From the IMG/VR virus record IMGVR_UViG_3300044695_007754, positions 1-31,806 of that record: a stretch of DNA of 31,806 nucleotides; one strand, 5' to 3'. Shown here piece after piece: positions 4,820 through 24,918 of the stretch. Within the stretch, counting starts at the first letter, position 1. Each line of letters starts with the position of its first letter. The DNA is from a virus. A program made the position numbers and the translations under genes. The notes under the pieces are model-generated. The model had not been told where the DNA came from, searched no databases, and worked only from the letters and a program-made list of their open reading frames with translations.

Positions 4820-5260
4820 TTATGAATATACTGCTGTGAAACCAAATGCACCTAATTTGATAGATGCTGTTTCCATTTCAACATCACCAGGAGCATATGT
4901 AAGAGTACTATCAGTGATTAATCCTTGATAAGTAAGTGTTGAACCTGCACCACCTGGATTAATTGTTACTTTGCAAAGATATCCTGTTTTATAGGCAAAA
5001 ACTGGTCCTTGAGCTTCATCAACATATAATTCAAGTTCAAGAGTTCCAGTAAGACCTGTAGTAAAGGTTGCTTCTGTTTCTGAACAAAGAGTAGTGAGAT
5101 CAATTGTTCTTGCAGTAATATTTGCAGTTACTGTTTTCGCTTGACACTCATAATTGGCTGATGGAGCACTAGGAATGCTACCTGCTCCACCTGTAGATTG
5201 AGAATCAGATGCAATACTGATTTCAACTACGGCTTCTGAAACTAAAACTGGTTGTGGCAT
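4820..5260 (-). CDS. major tail tube protein
   Basis: The 146-residue protein is beta-rich, with Gly/Ser/Thr-rich loops and repeated Thr in strands (text such as TVTANITARTIDL). Length and composition fit a tail tube subunit. It lies between the tail terminator and the assembly chaperone, the usual position for the tube protein. A Shine-Dalgarno AAGGA stands about eight bases ahead of ATG 5260, stronger than at neighbouring genes, as expected for an abundant product. The call relies on position, size and fold-like composition, because no family signature is obvious by eye. Confidence 0.75.
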   Translation of the reverse strand: MPQPVLVSEAVVEISIASDSQSTGGAGSIPSAPSANYECQAKTVTANITARTIDLTTLCSETEATFTTGLTGTLELELYVDEAQGPVFAYKTGYLCKVTINPGGAGSTLTYQGLITDSTLTYAPGDVEMETASIKLGAFGFTAVYS

Positions 5261-17455: not shown

Positions 17456-17482
17456 TAAAAGGTGAGTGAGGTAAGATATTTT

Positions 17483-18202
17483 ATGAAGTTTTTTTTGAAC
17501 AGCCGTACGCCTAATGAGCGATATAGCTTTAATGTTAAGTATGATCAGTTTGGAAATATAGTGCATAGAAAAAGCATTGATACCAGTGAAAAGATCTTGA
17601 TCGATGTTTTTGAAAAAGAAGTACTAAGCTTATTAGAAAACGACAATAAGGTTTTCACAATGATAGAGCTTGGTAGTAATCAGTGTTATTATTCTATCAT
17701 GTTTAAGGCTATGTGTAAGCATTTTAAGAAGTCTAGTGATGTATTCCTAGTAGAACCTAATCCAACACATTTACAAAGAGGTATTGAAAATTTCTCTATG
17801 AATAATTACAATGGCTATTTTAACAGCTTGATTATTGGTGAGAAGGAATCCCTAAAAGAAGACTTAGACATTAGCTCATTACCAGGAGGAAGTGAATACC
17901 TCTTTGGATGTAAAGTTATGACAATTCCTTTCAGACAATTTGTAAAGAATAACCTAAATGAAAACTGTGAAGATGGGGTAGACATTCTTCATATGGATGT
18001 TGATTTTGCAGAGATGAGTGTATTAGAAAGCGGAAAAGAATTATTCGCTGATAAATTTTTTAAGAAAGTATTCGTCAGTACTCATAGCGTTGATCTTCAC
18101 AATAGAACTAAAAGCTTTATGCTAGGTTATGGATACAATTTAATACATGAAGAAACTAATAACGTAGTAGGTAATGACAGACTATTAGTTTTCGTTAAAT
18201 AA
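17483..18202 (+). CDS. FkbM-family SAM-dependent methyltransferase
   Basis: The 239-residue product has the FkbM pattern: motif I as MIELGSNQCYYSIMFKAM, VFLVEPNPTHLQRGIENFSM after the second strand, and DILHMDVDFAEMSVLESG as the acidic motif, then FVSTHS. Family members O-methylate sugars and other small acceptors. In a phage it could modify host surface glycans or, less likely, virion or nucleic-acid targets. ATG 17483 has GAGG upstream. A GTG at 17462 extends the frame by seven codons but would sit on the predicted transcript start without a ribosome site. It is one of only two plus-strand genes, with its own promoter and a terminator after the pair, which is typical of acquired cargo. Confidence 0.85.
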   Translation: MKFFLNSRTPNERYSFNVKYDQFGNIVHRKSIDTSEKILIDVFEKEVLSLLENDNKVFTMIELGSNQCYYSIMFKAMCKHFKKSSDVFLVEPNPTHLQRGIENFSMNNYNGYFNSLIIGEKESLKEDLDISSLPGGSEYLFGCKVMTIPFRQFVKNNLNENCEDGVDILHMDVDFAEMSVLESGKELFADKFFKKVFVSTHSVDLHNRTKSFMLGYGYNLIHEETNNVVGNDRLLVFVK

Positions 18203-18799: not shown

Positions 18800-18836
18800 A
18801 AATAAATCCCTAGAAAAATCTAGGGATTTATTTTTT
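18800..18836 (-). terminator. intrinsic terminator after the portal gene
   Basis: AAATAAATCCCTAGA pairs with its complement across a four-base loop, with A and T runs on both flanks. It begins at the portal stop codon and probably works on either strand. Confidence 0.85.
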
Positions 18837-20518
18837 TATTCTTCTTCATCTTTTAGTTTTTGAACTATATTTCTAGACCAAGTAAAACCTGCATCTCCAC
18901 CCCAAAGATCCCATGCTACTCTTCCGTTGCTAGGATATCCTTCTGATCCTTGATAGAATCCAGGAGCTTTCTTATCTACTTCATGTCTGCTGAAGAAACT
19001 AAACATTCTTACCACTGTTTCTTCTGATAAATTGTCACGATTAACTATTTGATTTGCTCTTGCTAAACCAATTCTAGTTCCACCATCAAATCCATCATCT
19101 TTCCATCTTAATGCTCTTCTTGCGTTATTAACCATTGTTTGATTTGGTTCATAGCTAGACTTTTTTTTTACGTTAACGTCTAAGAAGTTTTTAATTGGAT
19201 CACCATTAACGTTTTGTGTGGTGATAAATAATGGAGTAGAATCTGGATGATAGATTTGTTCATCTGTTGGGTTGTAATCATAACCTACTAATCGTTTAGC
19301 TTCTGCACGATCAATAATTCCAGCTTTATAAAGTAACTCAGCTTTTTGTGCTTCCTTATAACTGTCATCCTTTAGTGCTTTAATATCACTAAGATCAAAG
19401 TCAAAGAAATCACCTTCTATTGTTTCAGGGAATTCAGGTAGTAATTCTTGAGTAATGCTTTCTGCAATAACACGCAATAAGGGAATTACACCATTATCCC
19501 AAGCATTTTGAGTAGCTTCTTGGAGGTTGTTATATGTACTATTTTGTAATCCAGCACTAAGATTTAAAACAAGACAGTTAAGACCAAGAGCTGCTGTAAT
19601 TCTTTCTTCAGGAGTATGTCTAACAACATCAAATGCCATATCGCTAGGTGTATGAGAAACTTTTTCCACTTTAAATGGACCACTCATAACAGCTACACTA
19701 CCAGCATTATCCCCAGTAAATGAGTCTTGTAAGCGTTTCTTTAATGTTCTAAGATCGTCATCACTTACATCTACTGCTTGATCTGTTGCATCAGGACCAA
19801 CAAGAAGACTAGGTAATCCACTGTTTTTCATCATTCCATAAGAGGTTGAAGAAGTTTGGTTATCTGTAGCAATTTCTCTTAAGGTTGACATAAGAGGGCT
19901 TCTACCTAAACGCATATCTTCAGGATCACGAGCATAAGCAATGTGAATCATATCTTGAAGTTTAATGCTATAAATTTGCCCATCATTCATATAGTTGTAA
20001 TGGGTTAAGGGATTCTTTCCATCACCTTGAGGAGCACAAGTTTGATAAGGTAAGAATTGCAAACCTATTACAGGTCCATTAGTGCTTTTCCTAATCTTTC
20101 TAATATAAACATTTCCAGAAGTCTTGTAATCAATAATTACATTACTCCAGAAACGACTAGGAGCTAAACCATATTGAGGATTAGCAAGTAAGGCAAGCAT
20201 AGGATGATTAGGATCTTTTTCATATTCTGTTTCTGAACCAGGAATTAAGCGATATACCATAGGTCTAGCTTCAGCATAAGCACGGATAAAGAAATCCATA
20301 CTTATTGCCACTATGCTATTTAACATAATGTCCCCAGCTACACTAACCCAATCCTTCTGACTTCCTGGTAAACGTCTAGAAAGATTAGCATAAAGATCTC
20401 TAAGACCAATAGCAGAAAGGTAGTTTACTCCACTAGCTTGTAATGGTATGGGAAGGTTTTGTGTTGGTACTGCTGCAGCCTTACTTTCCCTATTAAATAA
20501 ATTTGAGAAGAAACCCAT
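18836..20518 (-). CDS. portal protein, HK97/phage-type
   Basis: The 560-residue protein matches the HK97-type portal: an N-terminal MGFFSNLFNRESKA lead, a wing region with NSIVAISMDFFIRAYAEARP (about 70-90), LANPQYGLAPSRFWSNVI, YKTSGNVYIRKIRKSTNGPV and IKLQDMIHIAYARDPEDMRL. It forms the dodecameric DNA gate at the packaging vertex. The last ~100 residues hold an extra domain (ARRALRWKDDGFDGG ... HEVDKKAPG ... RVAWDLWGGDAG) seen in other phage structural proteins and apparently DNA- or scaffold-related. The gene has its own late-type promoter 31 bases upstream, AAGGA near the start, and a terminator right after the stop, so it is transcribed as a single-gene unit. Confidence 0.92.
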   Translation of the reverse strand: MGFFSNLFNRESKAAAVPTQNLPIPLQASGVNYLSAIGLRDLYANLSRRLPGSQKDWVSVAGDIMLNSIVAISMDFFIRAYAEARPMVYRLIPGSETEYEKDPNHPMLALLANPQYGLAPSRFWSNVIIDYKTSGNVYIRKIRKSTNGPVIGLQFLPYQTCAPQGDGKNPLTHYNYMNDGQIYSIKLQDMIHIAYARDPEDMRLGRSPLMSTLREIATDNQTSSTSYGMMKNSGLPSLLVGPDATDQAVDVSDDDLRTLKKRLQDSFTGDNAGSVAVMSGPFKVEKVSHTPSDMAFDVVRHTPEERITAALGLNCLVLNLSAGLQNSTYNNLQEATQNAWDNGVIPLLRVIAESITQELLPEFPETIEGDFFDFDLSDIKALKDDSYKEAQKAELLYKAGIIDRAEAKRLVGYDYNPTDEQIYHPDSTPLFITTQNVNGDPIKNFLDVNVKKKSSYEPNQTMVNNARRALRWKDDGFDGGTRIGLARANQIVNRDNLSEETVVRMFSFFSRHEVDKKAPGFYQGSEGYPSNGRVAWDLWGGDAGFTWSRNIVQKLKDEEE

Positions 20519-20548: not shown

Positions 20549-20911
20549 TTATTTTACGATATGCCTAATATTGTGGTAATCAGGTAAAAATTCCTCTATA
20601 TATCTTCTCAATTCTTCTGATATAGGAAAAGATTGTTTAGGAATAATTGTTAATTCACCTCTATGTATATCTTGTTTACTTTTATATAATGACAAACAAA
20701 ATCTAACAAAATCAGAACAAAGATAACTTATATCAATATCTGATGAAAAAAATGTTGGCATATGATCTTGAGGATTTTTAGATTTTTTTCGTAATCCAAT
20801 ATTTTCTTTAGGATTTTTCATACATAAGGTATAAAAATCATCTTTATTCATTTCTGATTTTTTGAGATTACTGTGACCAATAATGTTAGCAATTTGAATA
20901 TAATCACTCAT
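20549..20911 (-). CDS. orphan paralog A (120 aa) of a triplicated family
   Basis: One of three related genes of unknown function. It shares the N-terminus (D)YIQ(I/L)A, an invariant FYTLCMKNPKENIGLR block (residues about 26-41), a YLCSDFVRFCLSLYK block (about 63-77) and an IPKQSFPISEELRRYIEEF block near the end. Three conserved cysteines lie in the first two blocks. No signal, membrane segment or nucleic-acid motif was seen. The start overlaps the stop of paralog B as ATGA. Its last codons (IVK, stop) coincide with the late-type promoter motif of the portal gene, so the two features constrain the same bases. The function is unknown. Confidence 0.8.
   Translation of the reverse strand: MSDYIQIANIIGHSNLKKSEMNKDDFYTLCMKNPKENIGLRKKSKNPQDHMPTFFSSDIDISYLCSDFVRFCLSLYKSKQDIHRGELTIIPKQSFPISEELRRYIEEFLPDYHNIRHIVK
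20550..20561 (-). promoter_or_regulatory. candidate phage late promoter, copy 3 (TATCGTAAAATA)
   Basis: The identical 12-mer lies 31 bases before the portal ATG and overlaps the last codons and stop of paralog A. Copies 1 and 2 are intergenic, so the element persists even where coding sequence constrains it. Confidence 0.7.
20792..20821 (-). repeat. 30-bp exact repeat, copy A
   Basis: These 30 bases are identical in three places (also 21136-21165 and 22336-22365) and encode the PKENIGLR side of the conserved block. Flanks diverge much more. Third codon positions do not vary at all, which is unusual for the family as a whole. Confidence 0.85.
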
Positions 20912-21261
20912 TTTCTGATCCCATAAAAATCAGGTAAGAATTCCTCTAAATATTTTCTCAATTCTTCTGATAAAGGAAAGGATTGTTTAGGAATTAAGGA
21001 TACTTCAGATTTTGAAACATAACTATTATTTTTATAGAATGATAAACAAAATCTAACAAAATCAGAGCACAAATAATCTAAATTTATCTCATTGCTATTA
21101 AACACTAATAATTCATGCTTTCTGCTATTTAATCTTAATCCAATATTTTCTTTAGGATTTTTCATACATAAAGTATAAAAATCATCTAATATCATTTCAG
21201 TAGCTTTCTTAGATCTATTAGGTGTTCCTCTTACTGAAGCTAATTGAATATAATCACTCAT
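20908..21261 (-). CDS. orphan paralog B (117 aa) of a triplicated family
   Basis: This is the middle copy of the family. ATG 21261 is chosen over an in-frame ATG six codons upstream because it overlaps the methyltransferase stop as ATGA and gives MSDYIQLAS, matching the start of paralog A. The conserved blocks are the same: FYTLCMKNPKENIGLR, YLCSDFVRFCLSFYK and IPKQSFPLSEELRKYLEEF. The variable stretches between them (residues 10-23 and 41-58) differ in length, as in surface loops. It is followed directly by paralog A. The function is unknown. Confidence 0.8.
   Translation of the reverse strand: MSDYIQLASVRGTPNRSKKATEMILDDFYTLCMKNPKENIGLRLNSRKHELLVFNSNEINLDYLCSDFVRFCLSFYKNNSYVSKSEVSLIPKQSFPLSEELRKYLEEFLPDFYGIRK
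21136..21165 (-). repeat. 30-bp exact repeat, copy B
   Basis: Second copy of the identical 30-base stretch, inside paralog B. Identity between copies A and B extends further, through the codons for the FYTLCMKN block, than it does with copy C. Confidence 0.85.
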
Positions 21262-22136
21262 TTCTTTAACTGTGTCCAATCCACTTCTTCATAAGGAACA
21301 CGCAAATCCCAAAGAGATCCATTCTGTCTGATATATTCTTTTAGCTCATAAAAGAATGGTCTAACTAGTGGTCTCCATTTACTTCCAAATTTAGTAATTT
21401 CAAAGATATCTTCTTCTAAAAATTTGTCACCAAAATAATCAACAGAGGTGACAAATGTATTTCTAAAATCTATATTGCAAATAACACAAGGAACAAACAA
21501 TTGAATGTTAAAAACAGGATTACCATTAAATGCTCTTACTAGTTTTAAGTGACCTGCTATCTTTTTTCTATAATCCATGTAAAGCTTAAAAGAATGTTTC
21601 AAATCAATTAGCCAAGTAGAAGGATGAACAATTACCCATCTGTCTGAGATATGAAATATTTCTTTTAATATTTTTAAGTCTAAATTTTTATTAAATGGAG
21701 GATTAGTAAAAATTACATCATATTTGTAATTTATATCCTTAAGAAAAAAAGCATCACCATTTATCACGTTTAAGTCTGATGATATATGCTTTAGTTTATC
21801 ACAATTGTCACTATCTATCTCTAAGAAATGTAACTTATTTTTAATGTAAATTTCTAAATTTAAATCTGGATTATTGTTAGCTAAATATCTGAGCCATCTA
21901 ATTCCAAAAACACCTATACCTGCACAAAGATCCATAACTAGAAGATTAACGTCTGGTTCTATCCCGCTAATCATTTCATCAACAATATGGATAGGTGTAA
22001 ATACTTCTCCTAATCTCTTACTTCTATCCTTATCTTGTTCTGGTTTAAGGTTAGGTTCTGTAATAGGAAAAAGGGATAAATCACAATCTATTTTGTAATA
22101 TTCTTTAAATTTATTTTCTATTATTTCTAGTGTCAT
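21258..22136 (-). CDS. DNA adenine-type methyltransferase (Eco57I / N6-MTase-like), no partner nuclease
   Basis: The 292-residue protein has GEVFTPIHIVDEMI near residues 43-56, motif I as MDLCAGIGVFGIR (68-80), an acidic motif II region (HFLEIDSD, 103-110) and the catalytic NPPF at 145-148. This is the pattern of N6-adenine methyltransferases of the Eco57I type. The C-terminal half, with VPCVICNIDF and WRPLVRPFF, probably recognises the target. It would methylate phage or host DNA, perhaps against restriction. No restriction subunit is encoded nearby. It overlaps paralog C by 26 bp and paralog B by four, so it is inserted in the triplicated array. Confidence 0.88.
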   Translation of the reverse strand: MTLEIIENKFKEYYKIDCDLSLFPITEPNLKPEQDKDRSKRLGEVFTPIHIVDEMISGIEPDVNLLVMDLCAGIGVFGIRWLRYLANNNPDLNLEIYIKNKLHFLEIDSDNCDKLKHISSDLNVINGDAFFLKDINYKYDVIFTNPPFNKNLDLKILKEIFHISDRWVIVHPSTWLIDLKHSFKLYMDYRKKIAGHLKLVRAFNGNPVFNIQLFVPCVICNIDFRNTFVTSVDYFGDKFLEEDIFEITKFGSKWRPLVRPFFYELKEYIRQNGSLWDLRVPYEEVDWTQLKK

Positions 22137-22449
22137 AAAAATCAGGTAAAAATTCCTCTATATATTTTTTAAGTTCTTCTGAGATAGGTATTGGTTGTTT
22201 AGGAATTATTTTTAATTCACCAGTGTCATTATGTTGATTATTTTTATATAATGCTAAACAAAACCTAGCAAAGTCTGAGCATAAATAATCTAAAGAAACT
22301 TCATTTTCAAGAAACACAATCTCAGAATCTAATCTTAATCCAATATTTTCTTTAGGATTTTTCATGCATAATGTATAGAAACTATCTTTAACCATTCCTA
22401 TTTTATTAGTGTTATGATTTCCTATAATGCTTGCTAATTGAATATACAT
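22111..22449 (-). CDS. orphan paralog C (112 aa) of a triplicated family
   Basis: This is the most divergent of the three copies but carries all conserved blocks (MYIQLAS start, FYTLCMKNPKENIGLR, YLCSDFARFCLALYK, IPKQPIPISEELKKYIEEF). It starts on the base right after the TerL stop (TAAATG), so translation is surely coupled. The methyltransferase separates it from copies B and A. Loops between blocks are shorter than in A and B. No known family was recognised. Confidence 0.8.
   Translation of the reverse strand: MYIQLASIIGNHNTNKIGMVKDSFYTLCMKNPKENIGLRLDSEIVFLENEVSLDYLCSDFARFCLALYKNNQHNDTGELKIIPKQPIPISEELKKYIEEFLPDFYDTRNNRK
22336..22365 (-). repeat. 30-bp exact repeat, copy C
   Basis: Third identical copy, inside paralog C. 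It lies about 1.2 kb from copy B, with the methyltransferase gene in between. Confidence 0.85.
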
Positions 22450-23763
22450 TTAAACAGCTATAAACTTTCTTGCTTTATTCATTGTTAATTCATAAAAAGC
22501 ATCAGACAAAGCATCTACTTGGTCATCATTTTTTGAATATGGAAAAGTTTCTAATTCTTTGATTAAGTCTTTATTCCAATCAGCCTTAATCATACTAACA
22601 TTTTCAGCATTAACTTGTATTGCAAAAGGTTCAGCTCTAGTCTCTTTATTTCCAGTAACCGTATTACTAACCACTGTAAATCCTGAAAGCATCTTAATAA
22701 AATAATAGGATAAAGACTTTCCTGCACTACCTGGATCTTGAGGAATCCTAATTCTTGTTTCCCTACCATCAAGCTCACTAATTTGTAGTATTTTTGCATC
22801 TCTTTTTTCAGTACCATCTTGACTTCTATAAACATCTAAAATCCAATAATGTTCTTTTTCATCAACTCCAAGAAGAATTCCAGTAGAATAATCACCTTTA
22901 CCAGATGATGCTGCCAAGTCATAAGCTCTTACCTTTCTTAAAATTTTTCCAGGTACACCAATCCTAATACGATCAGGTTTAAAAAGAGCTCCATCTTTAG
23001 GAACTGGTCTGCCTTGATATAGTGCTGAAAAAGCAAATTCACCCATAACTTCCTTAATAGATAAATAATCTTTTGTGCTAAATCTTTCTGGAAATATACT
23101 CTCATCTAATTTTCTACCAAGGGGATCAGATTCTTCATCCTCACATAAAGCAGGAATATTAATCACAGTAAAAGAAGAATCTAAAGAAAGTGCAAAACTA
23201 ATAGGATCATTTTCAGACCATCTAGTGCCAACAAGTATTAAAGATCCGTTAGGCTCTAGTCTAGAATACAGATCTTCACGATAAAAATCCTCTAATTTTG
23301 CTATTATTGTAGAAGAATTAGCTTCTTCCCTGTTCTTTACTAAATCATCACAAATTATAAGATTGTATCCAACGCCGGTTCTAGGATTGTTAACACTTCC
23401 AACATAATAAACACTATTACTTTTAGTGCTCCATTCATCTATACTTTGATGATTCTCTGATAATCCAATTCTTTCATATAGGATTGTCCTTGTTTTTCTA
23501 CTAAATCTTCTGGATATAGATTGATTATATCCAGCACATAATAAGTTGAAATTCTCATGTTTTTCAAGCATAAAAGCTGCAAATCTAAGTAGTGTTTCAC
23601 TCTTACCAGATCTAGGAGGAAGAGATATTGCTAATCTTTTAGTTTTACCATCAGCAACTTCTTGTAAATGTTTACAAATCAACAATATATGAGGACTATG
23701 TAGGTTCCAGGTTTTAGGAGAAGTTTCTAATAGGTATTTATGAAATTGGTTTATTGGCTTCAT
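22450..23763 (-). CDS. terminase large subunit (TerL)
   Basis: This is the packaging motor. In the 437-residue form, Walker A is PPRSGKS (49-55), Walker B is LIICDD (135-140), the coupling motif is VGTRW (178-182), and the RNase H-like nuclease starts at YDLAASSGKGD (281-291) with a late acidic site in DDQVDALSD (413-421). ATG 23763 is chosen because the longest frame (from 23931) would overlap TerS by 194 bp and its extra 56 residues look unlike the family; here the overlap is 26 bp. The Shine-Dalgarno at 23763 is weak, suggesting coupling to TerS. The next gene begins immediately after its stop. Confidence 0.93.
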   Translation of the reverse strand: MKPINQFHKYLLETSPKTWNLHSPHILLICKHLQEVADGKTKRLAISLPPRSGKSETLLRFAAFMLEKHENFNLLCAGYNQSISRRFSRKTRTILYERIGLSENHQSIDEWSTKSNSVYYVGSVNNPRTGVGYNLIICDDLVKNREEANSSTIIAKLEDFYREDLYSRLEPNGSLILVGTRWSENDPISFALSLDSSFTVINIPALCEDEESDPLGRKLDESIFPERFSTKDYLSIKEVMGEFAFSALYQGRPVPKDGALFKPDRIRIGVPGKILRKVRAYDLAASSGKGDYSTGILLGVDEKEHYWILDVYRSQDGTEKRDAKILQISELDGRETRIRIPQDPGSAGKSLSYYFIKMLSGFTVVSNTVTGNKETRAEPFAIQVNAENVSMIKADWNKDLIKELETFPYSKNDDQVDALSDAFYELTMNKARKFIAV

Positions 23764-24172
23764 CAATTTCAAGGTATTGGAATTGATTTGATTGATATTG
23801 CTGTTCTTCCAAGTTTCTGGCTTGTTGTATGTTGTTTGAGGCTTGTAGAATTGATATTGTCCAGTTTTCCAGTGTCCTATGCAATTCTGCAAGGTCTCTA
23901 CTGTTCTGTTGTCTGATATATCCTTTCTCATTTGCTAACTCCGCTATATTGTTCATTCCCTTTAGATGTGTAAGTAAACTTTCAGCAATATATTCACCTA
24001 TATTTTGCTCAACATCTAAAACAGCTTTACCGTATTTACCTTCTTTAATCTGATCCTTAATACGCCAAATTTGACTCTTAGAAACACCAGTAGCCTTATG
24101 TACTTCTCCTATTGTTTTTCCTTGCAATAAGAGAGCAATTATCTCAGGTTTTTTCTCTTGGGTTAGGCTCAT
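23738..24172 (-). CDS. terminase small subunit (TerS)
   Basis: The 144-residue protein opens with a helix-turn-helix (PEIIALLLQGKTIGEVHKAT, then GVSKSQIWRIKDQI) followed by helical oligomerisation text (QNIGEYIAESLLTHLKGMNN, then IAELANEKGYIRQQNSRDLA). This matches the small terminase layout: DNA binding at the N-terminus and oligomerisation after it. It precedes TerL with a short overlap and follows the sigma factor with a TAATG junction. The Gln-rich tail (EEQQYQSNQFQYLEIDE) may contact TerL. The call rests on HTH plus position. Confidence 0.82.
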   Translation of the reverse strand: MSLTQEKKPEIIALLLQGKTIGEVHKATGVSKSQIWRIKDQIKEGKYGKAVLDVEQNIGEYIAESLLTHLKGMNNIAELANEKGYIRQQNSRDLAELHRTLENWTISILQASNNIQQARNLEEQQYQSNQFQYLEIDEANKPIS

Positions 24173-24918
24173 TAAAATAAGTCATCCTTAAAGTTTTCTC
24201 TTAATCTTTTCAATGCTCTGTTCACAACTAATTCACTATCTTTATCTATCACCTTGTCTAAAGCTTTGTAAGTGTGAATTTCATTATCCTTTAAGCCAAA
24301 TTTTAAGATTAGTGCAGTTTTTTCTATTTCAGGTAATAGGTCCAGTAAATTATCTACCAATATTTTATCGAGAGAATATGCTTTTTCTATGTATTCTAGT
24401 TCCCTGTAATCATCTAGGTCAAATGTCTTTTGATTCTTTGTTTCTAGGGCTATTTTTACTTGTTCTAAGGTAACTTTATCTTTGATTAGTTCTGTTAGGT
24501 CTGTTATTTTTGGATCGTCTAAATCTAGTTTGTTAATTTTTGATTGAATTCTGTTTATGTGAGAAGGTTTTTTGATTGTGTTATTTTCAAGATCAACAAT
24601 TCTTCTTATCCTGCCAATAATGTAATAAGTAGCGAAGGTAGTGAATTTAGTATTCTTATTAGGCTTATATGTTTCTGTGGCTGATATTATTCCCTCTCTG
24701 CCTACTGCGATTAAATCATCATAACTAACATTGCTCCAGTAATATCTCTTAGCTGTGTAATGAACTGTATTTTCAAGAAAAAAGATTAATTGGTCTAAAG
24801 CTTTATCTCTTTCCCTAGAGTTTAGCCTCTCTAATAGAAAAGTTTCCATTTCTACTGTTAAAGTTTTATGGCTAAGTTTTTCTAGCTTAAAGCTTGCCCA
24901 GGTTTTTATTTTTTTCAT
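24172..24918 (-). CDS. phage-encoded sigma70-family sigma factor
   Basis: The 248-residue protein has a clear region 2 near residues 50-112. It contains NTVHYTAKRYYWSNVSYDDL, GREGIISATETYKPNKNTKF and TTFATYYIIGRIRRIVD, the core-binding and -10-recognition helices. Region 4 near 190-245 includes LLPEIEKTALILKFGL and a final recognition helix (VVNRALKRLRENF). It would redirect host RNA polymerase to phage promoters. It overlaps the XRE gene by 32 bp, so it is made with the early regulator, and TerS begins on its stop. The repeated 12-mer ahead of the three virion units is its likely target, by inference. Confidence 0.88.
   Translation of the reverse strand: MKKIKTWASFKLEKLSHKTLTVEMETFLLERLNSRERDKALDQLIFFLENTVHYTAKRYYWSNVSYDDLIAVGREGIISATETYKPNKNTKFTTFATYYIIGRIRRIVDLENNTIKKPSHINRIQSKINKLDLDDPKITDLTELIKDKVTLEQVKIALETKNQKTFDLDDYRELEYIEKAYSLDKILVDNLLDLLPEIEKTALILKFGLKDNEIHTYKALDKVIDKDSELVVNRALKRLRENFKDDLF

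Follow-up and report, generated by a model that had tools for sequence, protein, structure and literature searches.

The DNA analyzed here, hereafter the window, is a 31,806-nt viral sequence taken at its full length. On its minus strand, a compact four-gene cassette lies between the genes for the terminase large subunit (TerL; 22450-23931; PF17289, PHROG 38), its upstream border, and the portal protein (18836-20518; PF04860, E 4.6e-43), its downstream border. Read along this strand, TerL is followed by copy A (22111-22449; 112 aa), a gene for the catalytic part of a gamma-class N6-adenine DNA methyltransferase (MTase; 21258-22136; 292 aa), copy B (20908-21261; 117 aa from its ATG), copy C (20549-20911; 120 aa) and the portal gene. 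The copies, each a putative stand-alone TRD-like subunit, are thus three intact, related genes arranged around an MTase, as a first-pass annotation of the sequence had noticed. It had also described overlaps of 4-26 nt or abutting genes, which the coordinates bear out: TerL and copy A abut; copy A overlaps the start of the MTase gene by 26 nt; and 4-nt overlaps (ATGA) join the MTase stop to copy B and copy B to copy C, leaving a gap of 30 nt between copy C and portal. Copy B most likely starts at the ATG of its ATGA overlap with the MTase stop (21261) rather than at the TTG upstream (21279). The same arrangement is present on three further IMG/VR metagenome contigs (DNA identity 99.97-99.98%), one of which (L007) ends inside the MTase gene; it is therefore not an error of one assembly. 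Between bases 1-168 and the last 168 bases of the window, 126 bases are identical; this terminal repeat fits a nearly complete genome of ~31.6 kb that is terminally redundant or circularly permuted.

The MTase has motifs X (LGEVFTP), I (DLCAG) and IV (NPPF), in this order, and matches PF02384 (E 1.5e-9; 38.1 bits, cutoff 20.4). The order X, I, IV with a catalytic NPPY/F defines the gamma class, in which motif I and motif IV are followed by a TRD (PMC8187626). Where is the TRD of the window enzyme? In alignments, its C-terminal end (..WDLRVPYEEVDWTQLKK) falls at about the point where fused relatives run on into an additional domain, and the three copies start at the first conserved residues of that very domain (YIQLA..); the MTase by itself thus seems to lack a recognition domain. 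Pfam finds neither a helicase nor a nuclease domain in its 292 residues, which sets it apart from Type ISP enzymes, where nuclease, helicase, MTase and TRD form one chain, and neither a restriction gene beside it nor an HsdR is seen.

The copies are 59-62% identical in pairwise BLAST comparisons and have in common an invariant block of 16 residues, FYTLCMKNPKENIGLR; an invariant run of this length is reached in ~0.07% of column shuffles of their alignment, so the block, which the first-pass annotation had picked out, exceeds chance. Invariant columns cluster, as do the variable ones (p = 0.002), which carry indels. Between the paralogues, dN/dS is ~0.3-0.5, a pattern consistent with purifying selection on all three; that such ratios are found despite a dS of 0.65-0.85 suggests that all three have been kept as proteins for some time. 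A mosaic (recombinant) origin was tested with informative sites, which favor AB|CD in the middle and AD|BC further on; it is not claimed because their clustering is not significant (p = 0.098).

To what family do these proteins belong? They had been taken for orphans matching no family, but PHROG 11371 (383 positions) matches all three (E 9e-9, 2e-8 and 4e-10): its first part (positions 3-104) matches the window MTase, and each copy matches within positions 142-236. In members of PHROG 11371, a family listed as “unknown function,” the domain follows the catalytic half of an adenine MTase in the same polypeptide. The copies match no curated TRD family in Pfam and yield no match to Methylase_S at E up to 1; NCBIfam (one sub-cutoff match) and PADLOC return nothing usable for the copies themselves. 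Pfam near-matches (poly(A) polymerase RNA-binding, MACPF_D3, TECR_N) fall below cutoff and are not common to all three, and when the first domain alignment was searched as a profile against the PDB, the sole match, a minor capsid protein (E 0.12), was taken as chance.

Phages carry the domain in several layouts: (i) a single polypeptide of ~500 aa in the order X-I-IV-domain (L027 and two IMG/VR phages, L026 and L032); (ii) two genes, with X-I separate and IV fused to the domain (L015, L025, L028; the layout in S-CAM7 is similar); (iii) IV-domain, then X-I, then an extra domain copy (L024); and (iv) a permuted single chain, IV-domain-X-I, in Aeromonas phages (L004:3554-4714, L019:4554-5708). 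The last represent a natural circular permutation within the same MTase family. The domain occupies the TRD slot after motif IV in both motif orders; in the fused L026 and L032 proteins it follows motif IV at the C-terminus, where it would recognize DNA, and in the window its homologs are separate genes. The link between the copies and methylation, which the first-pass annotation considered a matter of proximity only, is thus one of homology to a domain that is covalently joined to the MTase elsewhere. One of its suggestions, that the copies are cofactors of the MTase, gains backing from these fusions in many phages and from plasmid restriction proteins.

The plasmid proteins are distant kin. 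Bacterial and archaeal genome contigs, searched with the motif IV-domain alignment, yielded no relative, and the close family therefore looks phage-borne. Three Lactobacillales plasmid proteins of ~1450-1480 aa (ResIII helicase, Eco57I methylase) end in the domain (WP_014570255, WP_169043412 and WP_195702120; i-Evalues 1e-13, 1e-13 and 2e-12 at Z = 10000), with homology limited to its C-terminal part (profile 55-129 of 137); a profile built from the window copies and L010, the closest relative of the window, finds none of the three. Their C-termini match the PADLOC MTase_II and REase_MTase_IIG models, and next to each gene lies a second, small gene for an “N-6 DNA methylase.” In these loci (L043:1-4877, L044:583-5738, L045:1055-6137), a protein of ~1450 aa holds helicase, motif IV and the domain, and the small methylase holds X-I, a split restriction-modification layout. 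Type ISP enzymes such as LlaBIII carry a C-terminal TRD after a gamma-MTase, and in the Eco57I-type plasmid proteins the domain of the window copies follows motif IV; unlike these long chains, the window MTase has no helicase fused to it.

Structure models add to the class assignment. Modeling copy A alone gave low quality (pLDDT 61), and nothing in the PDB matched the model. The natural fusion from L032 gives a confident model (pLDDT 79.6, pTM 0.78); its best solved matches (Foldseek) are CamA-DNA complexes (E 1e-11), then BpuSI, Type I HsdM, which resembles the model in fold, MmeI, M.BseCI and LlaBIII. Since the Foldseek table leaves the aligned residues unseen, these matches to a predicted structure support the overall MTase class but do not by themselves support the TRD fold. 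CamA, an orphan adenine MTase of C. difficile, carries its TRD at the C-terminus, after the catalytic domain (PMC8187626); it is one chain with a TRD of ~257 residues, whereas the window domain has ~120 and is separate.

What would three detached copies of such a domain do beside a catalytic subunit that ends where the domain should begin? They are likely to be stand-alone TRD (specificity) subunits of the adjacent gamma-class N6-adenine MTase, in an M+S-like system of the “Type 1 1/2” kind. The 292-aa MTase would supply cofactor binding (motifs X and I) and catalysis (motif IV) without a recognition domain; the overlapping genes are probably translated in a coupled manner, and a TRD subunit would dock on the MTase in trans and guide it to a target in the DNA, in the way that HsdS or a single-TRD S subunit does for its M subunit. 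A “hetero-oligomer,” another early suggestion, would fit such an assembly. The most plausible use, we infer, is protection of phage DNA from restriction. A point against assigning the copies as TRDs is their size: 112-120 aa is small for a TRD.

Known systems provide precedents for the parts. “Type 1 1/2” MTases (M.AhdI, M.BsaBI, M.PshAI) have separate M and single-TRD S genes, and M.AhdI is a 2M+2S complex (PMC3874165). The window likewise has an M gene separate from small genes, whose identity as TRDs is deduced from homology and position; unlike these systems, it has three S-like genes per M, its small subunits are phage-borne, and the likeness is one of gene layout. The gene junctions resemble that of the hsdM/hsdS pair, overlapping genes that are translationally coupled (PMC3510504). 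In Type I systems whose hsdS genes are duplicated or invert, one catalytic subunit is served by several specificity modules (PMC7394358), and the window too has one catalytic subunit and several candidate modules; in contrast to inverting loci, which keep a silent inverted store, its copies are three complete, same-strand, separately started genes. The phage MTases of PHROG 11371 (Aeromonas phages; related Lak-phage proteins) have the homologous domain directly after the motif IV half, but there the domain is fused and the MTase permuted or split, whereas the window has an entire catalytic part and, detached from it, three copies of the domain. Where several TRDs are present in one cell, their fusion restricts which combinations can form (PMC3874165); by analogy, the window would be the unfused case of several TRDs in one cell. 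While the parts are of known kind, the arrangement, one MTase with three putative detached readers, is unusual; a literature search, with most subscription journals outside its reach, found no published description of it.

If this assignment is right, extra TRD genes of ~350 bp, in place of whole methyltransferases, may allow a phage of ~31.6 kb to reach several methylation targets, a cheap way to keep pace with host restriction. The system would also be a very small M+S type adenine MTase in which the mixing of recognition subunits could be studied in a natural setting, and PHROG 11371 would acquire a likely function.

If the copies are TRD subunits, why are there three? In L010, whose MTase is 75% identical to that of the window, a single copy lies directly behind the MTase, at the position of copy B; copy B is probably the original partner, and copies A and C are probably lineage-specific extras that would give alternative or combined specificities. 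The first-pass annotation had reasoned that copies that are always single and never near the MTase in related phages would speak against a joint function: L010 indeed has just one copy, yet it directly follows the MTase, and other phages have duplicates. On a tentative reading, one catalytic subunit with three interchangeable recognition subunits would make a natural multi-specific adenine MTase; were its active form to contain two TRDs, it could have as many as three homomeric specificities and three mixed ones.

Duplications of TRD-like domains recur in other phages. In L016 and L024, the paired copies are 77-78% identical in the C-terminal half and 27-45% in the N-terminal half, a split between conserved and variable halves such as specificity modules show. 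In the tree, the L024 copies are each other's closest relatives, with good support, and the L016 copies fall into a separate, well-supported Lak-like group. L016 (3550-5848) has two tandem motif IV + TRD-like genes followed by one X-I gene; possibly, one cofactor-binding half is common to two catalytic/recognition halves.

The window copies do not display this contrast between halves. They are evenly similar along their length (copies A and B are identical at 35/54 and 35/55 positions in the two halves), which makes different specificities uncertain for the window phage, and it is accordingly possible, although we would not presume it, that the copies are TRD-like but redundant, with one being enough and A and C of the same specificity, kept for dosage or drifting. 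Identical DNA tracts of 30-36 nt common to the copies, the grouping of A, B and C together next to, and apart from, L010 (modest support, 84/74), and the fact that L010 manages with one copy all point this way. Yet all three genes are intact and, by their dN/dS at this dS, long kept; their variable columns cluster and carry indels; and duplication with strong divergence of one half is known from the other phages.

Could the extra copies instead be regulators, TRD-like proteins that lower or redirect methylation or restriction by competing against copy B or the specificity subunits of the host? Each starts at a codon of its own, none has a catalytic domain, and all would be expected to bind an MTase surface. 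This is nonetheless improbable: the conserved core is kept in every copy, and no named anti-restriction family in Pfam, NCBIfam or PADLOC matches them. The related suggestion of decoys against host defense, made in the first-pass annotation, finds no support.

The location between TerL and portal might hint at a part in packaging. Sister phages, found by portal and TerL searches (portal 65-86%), reveal that this junction varies: it contains nothing in L049, one HNH-endonuclease-like gene in five phages (L050, L051, L052, L054, L056), two in L053, a ParB-like gene plus one HNH-like gene in L055, and two HNH-like genes plus the MTase and one copy in L010, the HNH and ParB labels coming from reading the sequences, not from a profile search. 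Given these varied inserts, the window set is best viewed as an accessory cassette in a hot spot and not as packaging machinery; that the copies are packaging or head factors beside the MTase by chance is very unlikely and was rejected from this gene-order survey, most sisters having HNH endonucleases or nothing in place of the copies, and is nearly refuted by the MTase fusions of the same domain elsewhere. The junction (L049-L056, L062) is an insertion hot spot of this phage group.

Lak megaphages present a different organization. In Lak-B6, an 88-nt inverted repeat (95%) brackets two convergent copies (L006:3598-3685 and 4834-4921); Lak-A2 and Lak-C1 have inverted repeats of 64-69 nt (83-84%; L005:3776-3844 and 5050-5118; L041:3567-3630 and 4841-4904). 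One TRD type occupies the plus slot in Lak-B6 and the minus slot in Lak-A2, while the slot-specific tails have not moved. By analogy to hsdS loci (PMC7394358), inversion or conversion appears to have exchanged TRDs here, and the Lak locus is possibly an invertible specificity locus in a phage; if the copies are indeed specificity subunits, the exchange between inverted slots could be read as specificity switching. The window locus has no inverted copy, all three being complete and on the same strand, and thus lacks the hallmark of a phase-variable inverting locus.

Two other window genes deserve mention. At 17462-18202, on the plus strand and opposite to the surrounding genes, lies a second methyltransferase-like gene (PHROG 8156, E 2e-6), and a sigma-factor-like gene (24172-24918, minus strand; PHROG 351, Sigma70_r2) lies directly upstream of a putative small terminase gene.
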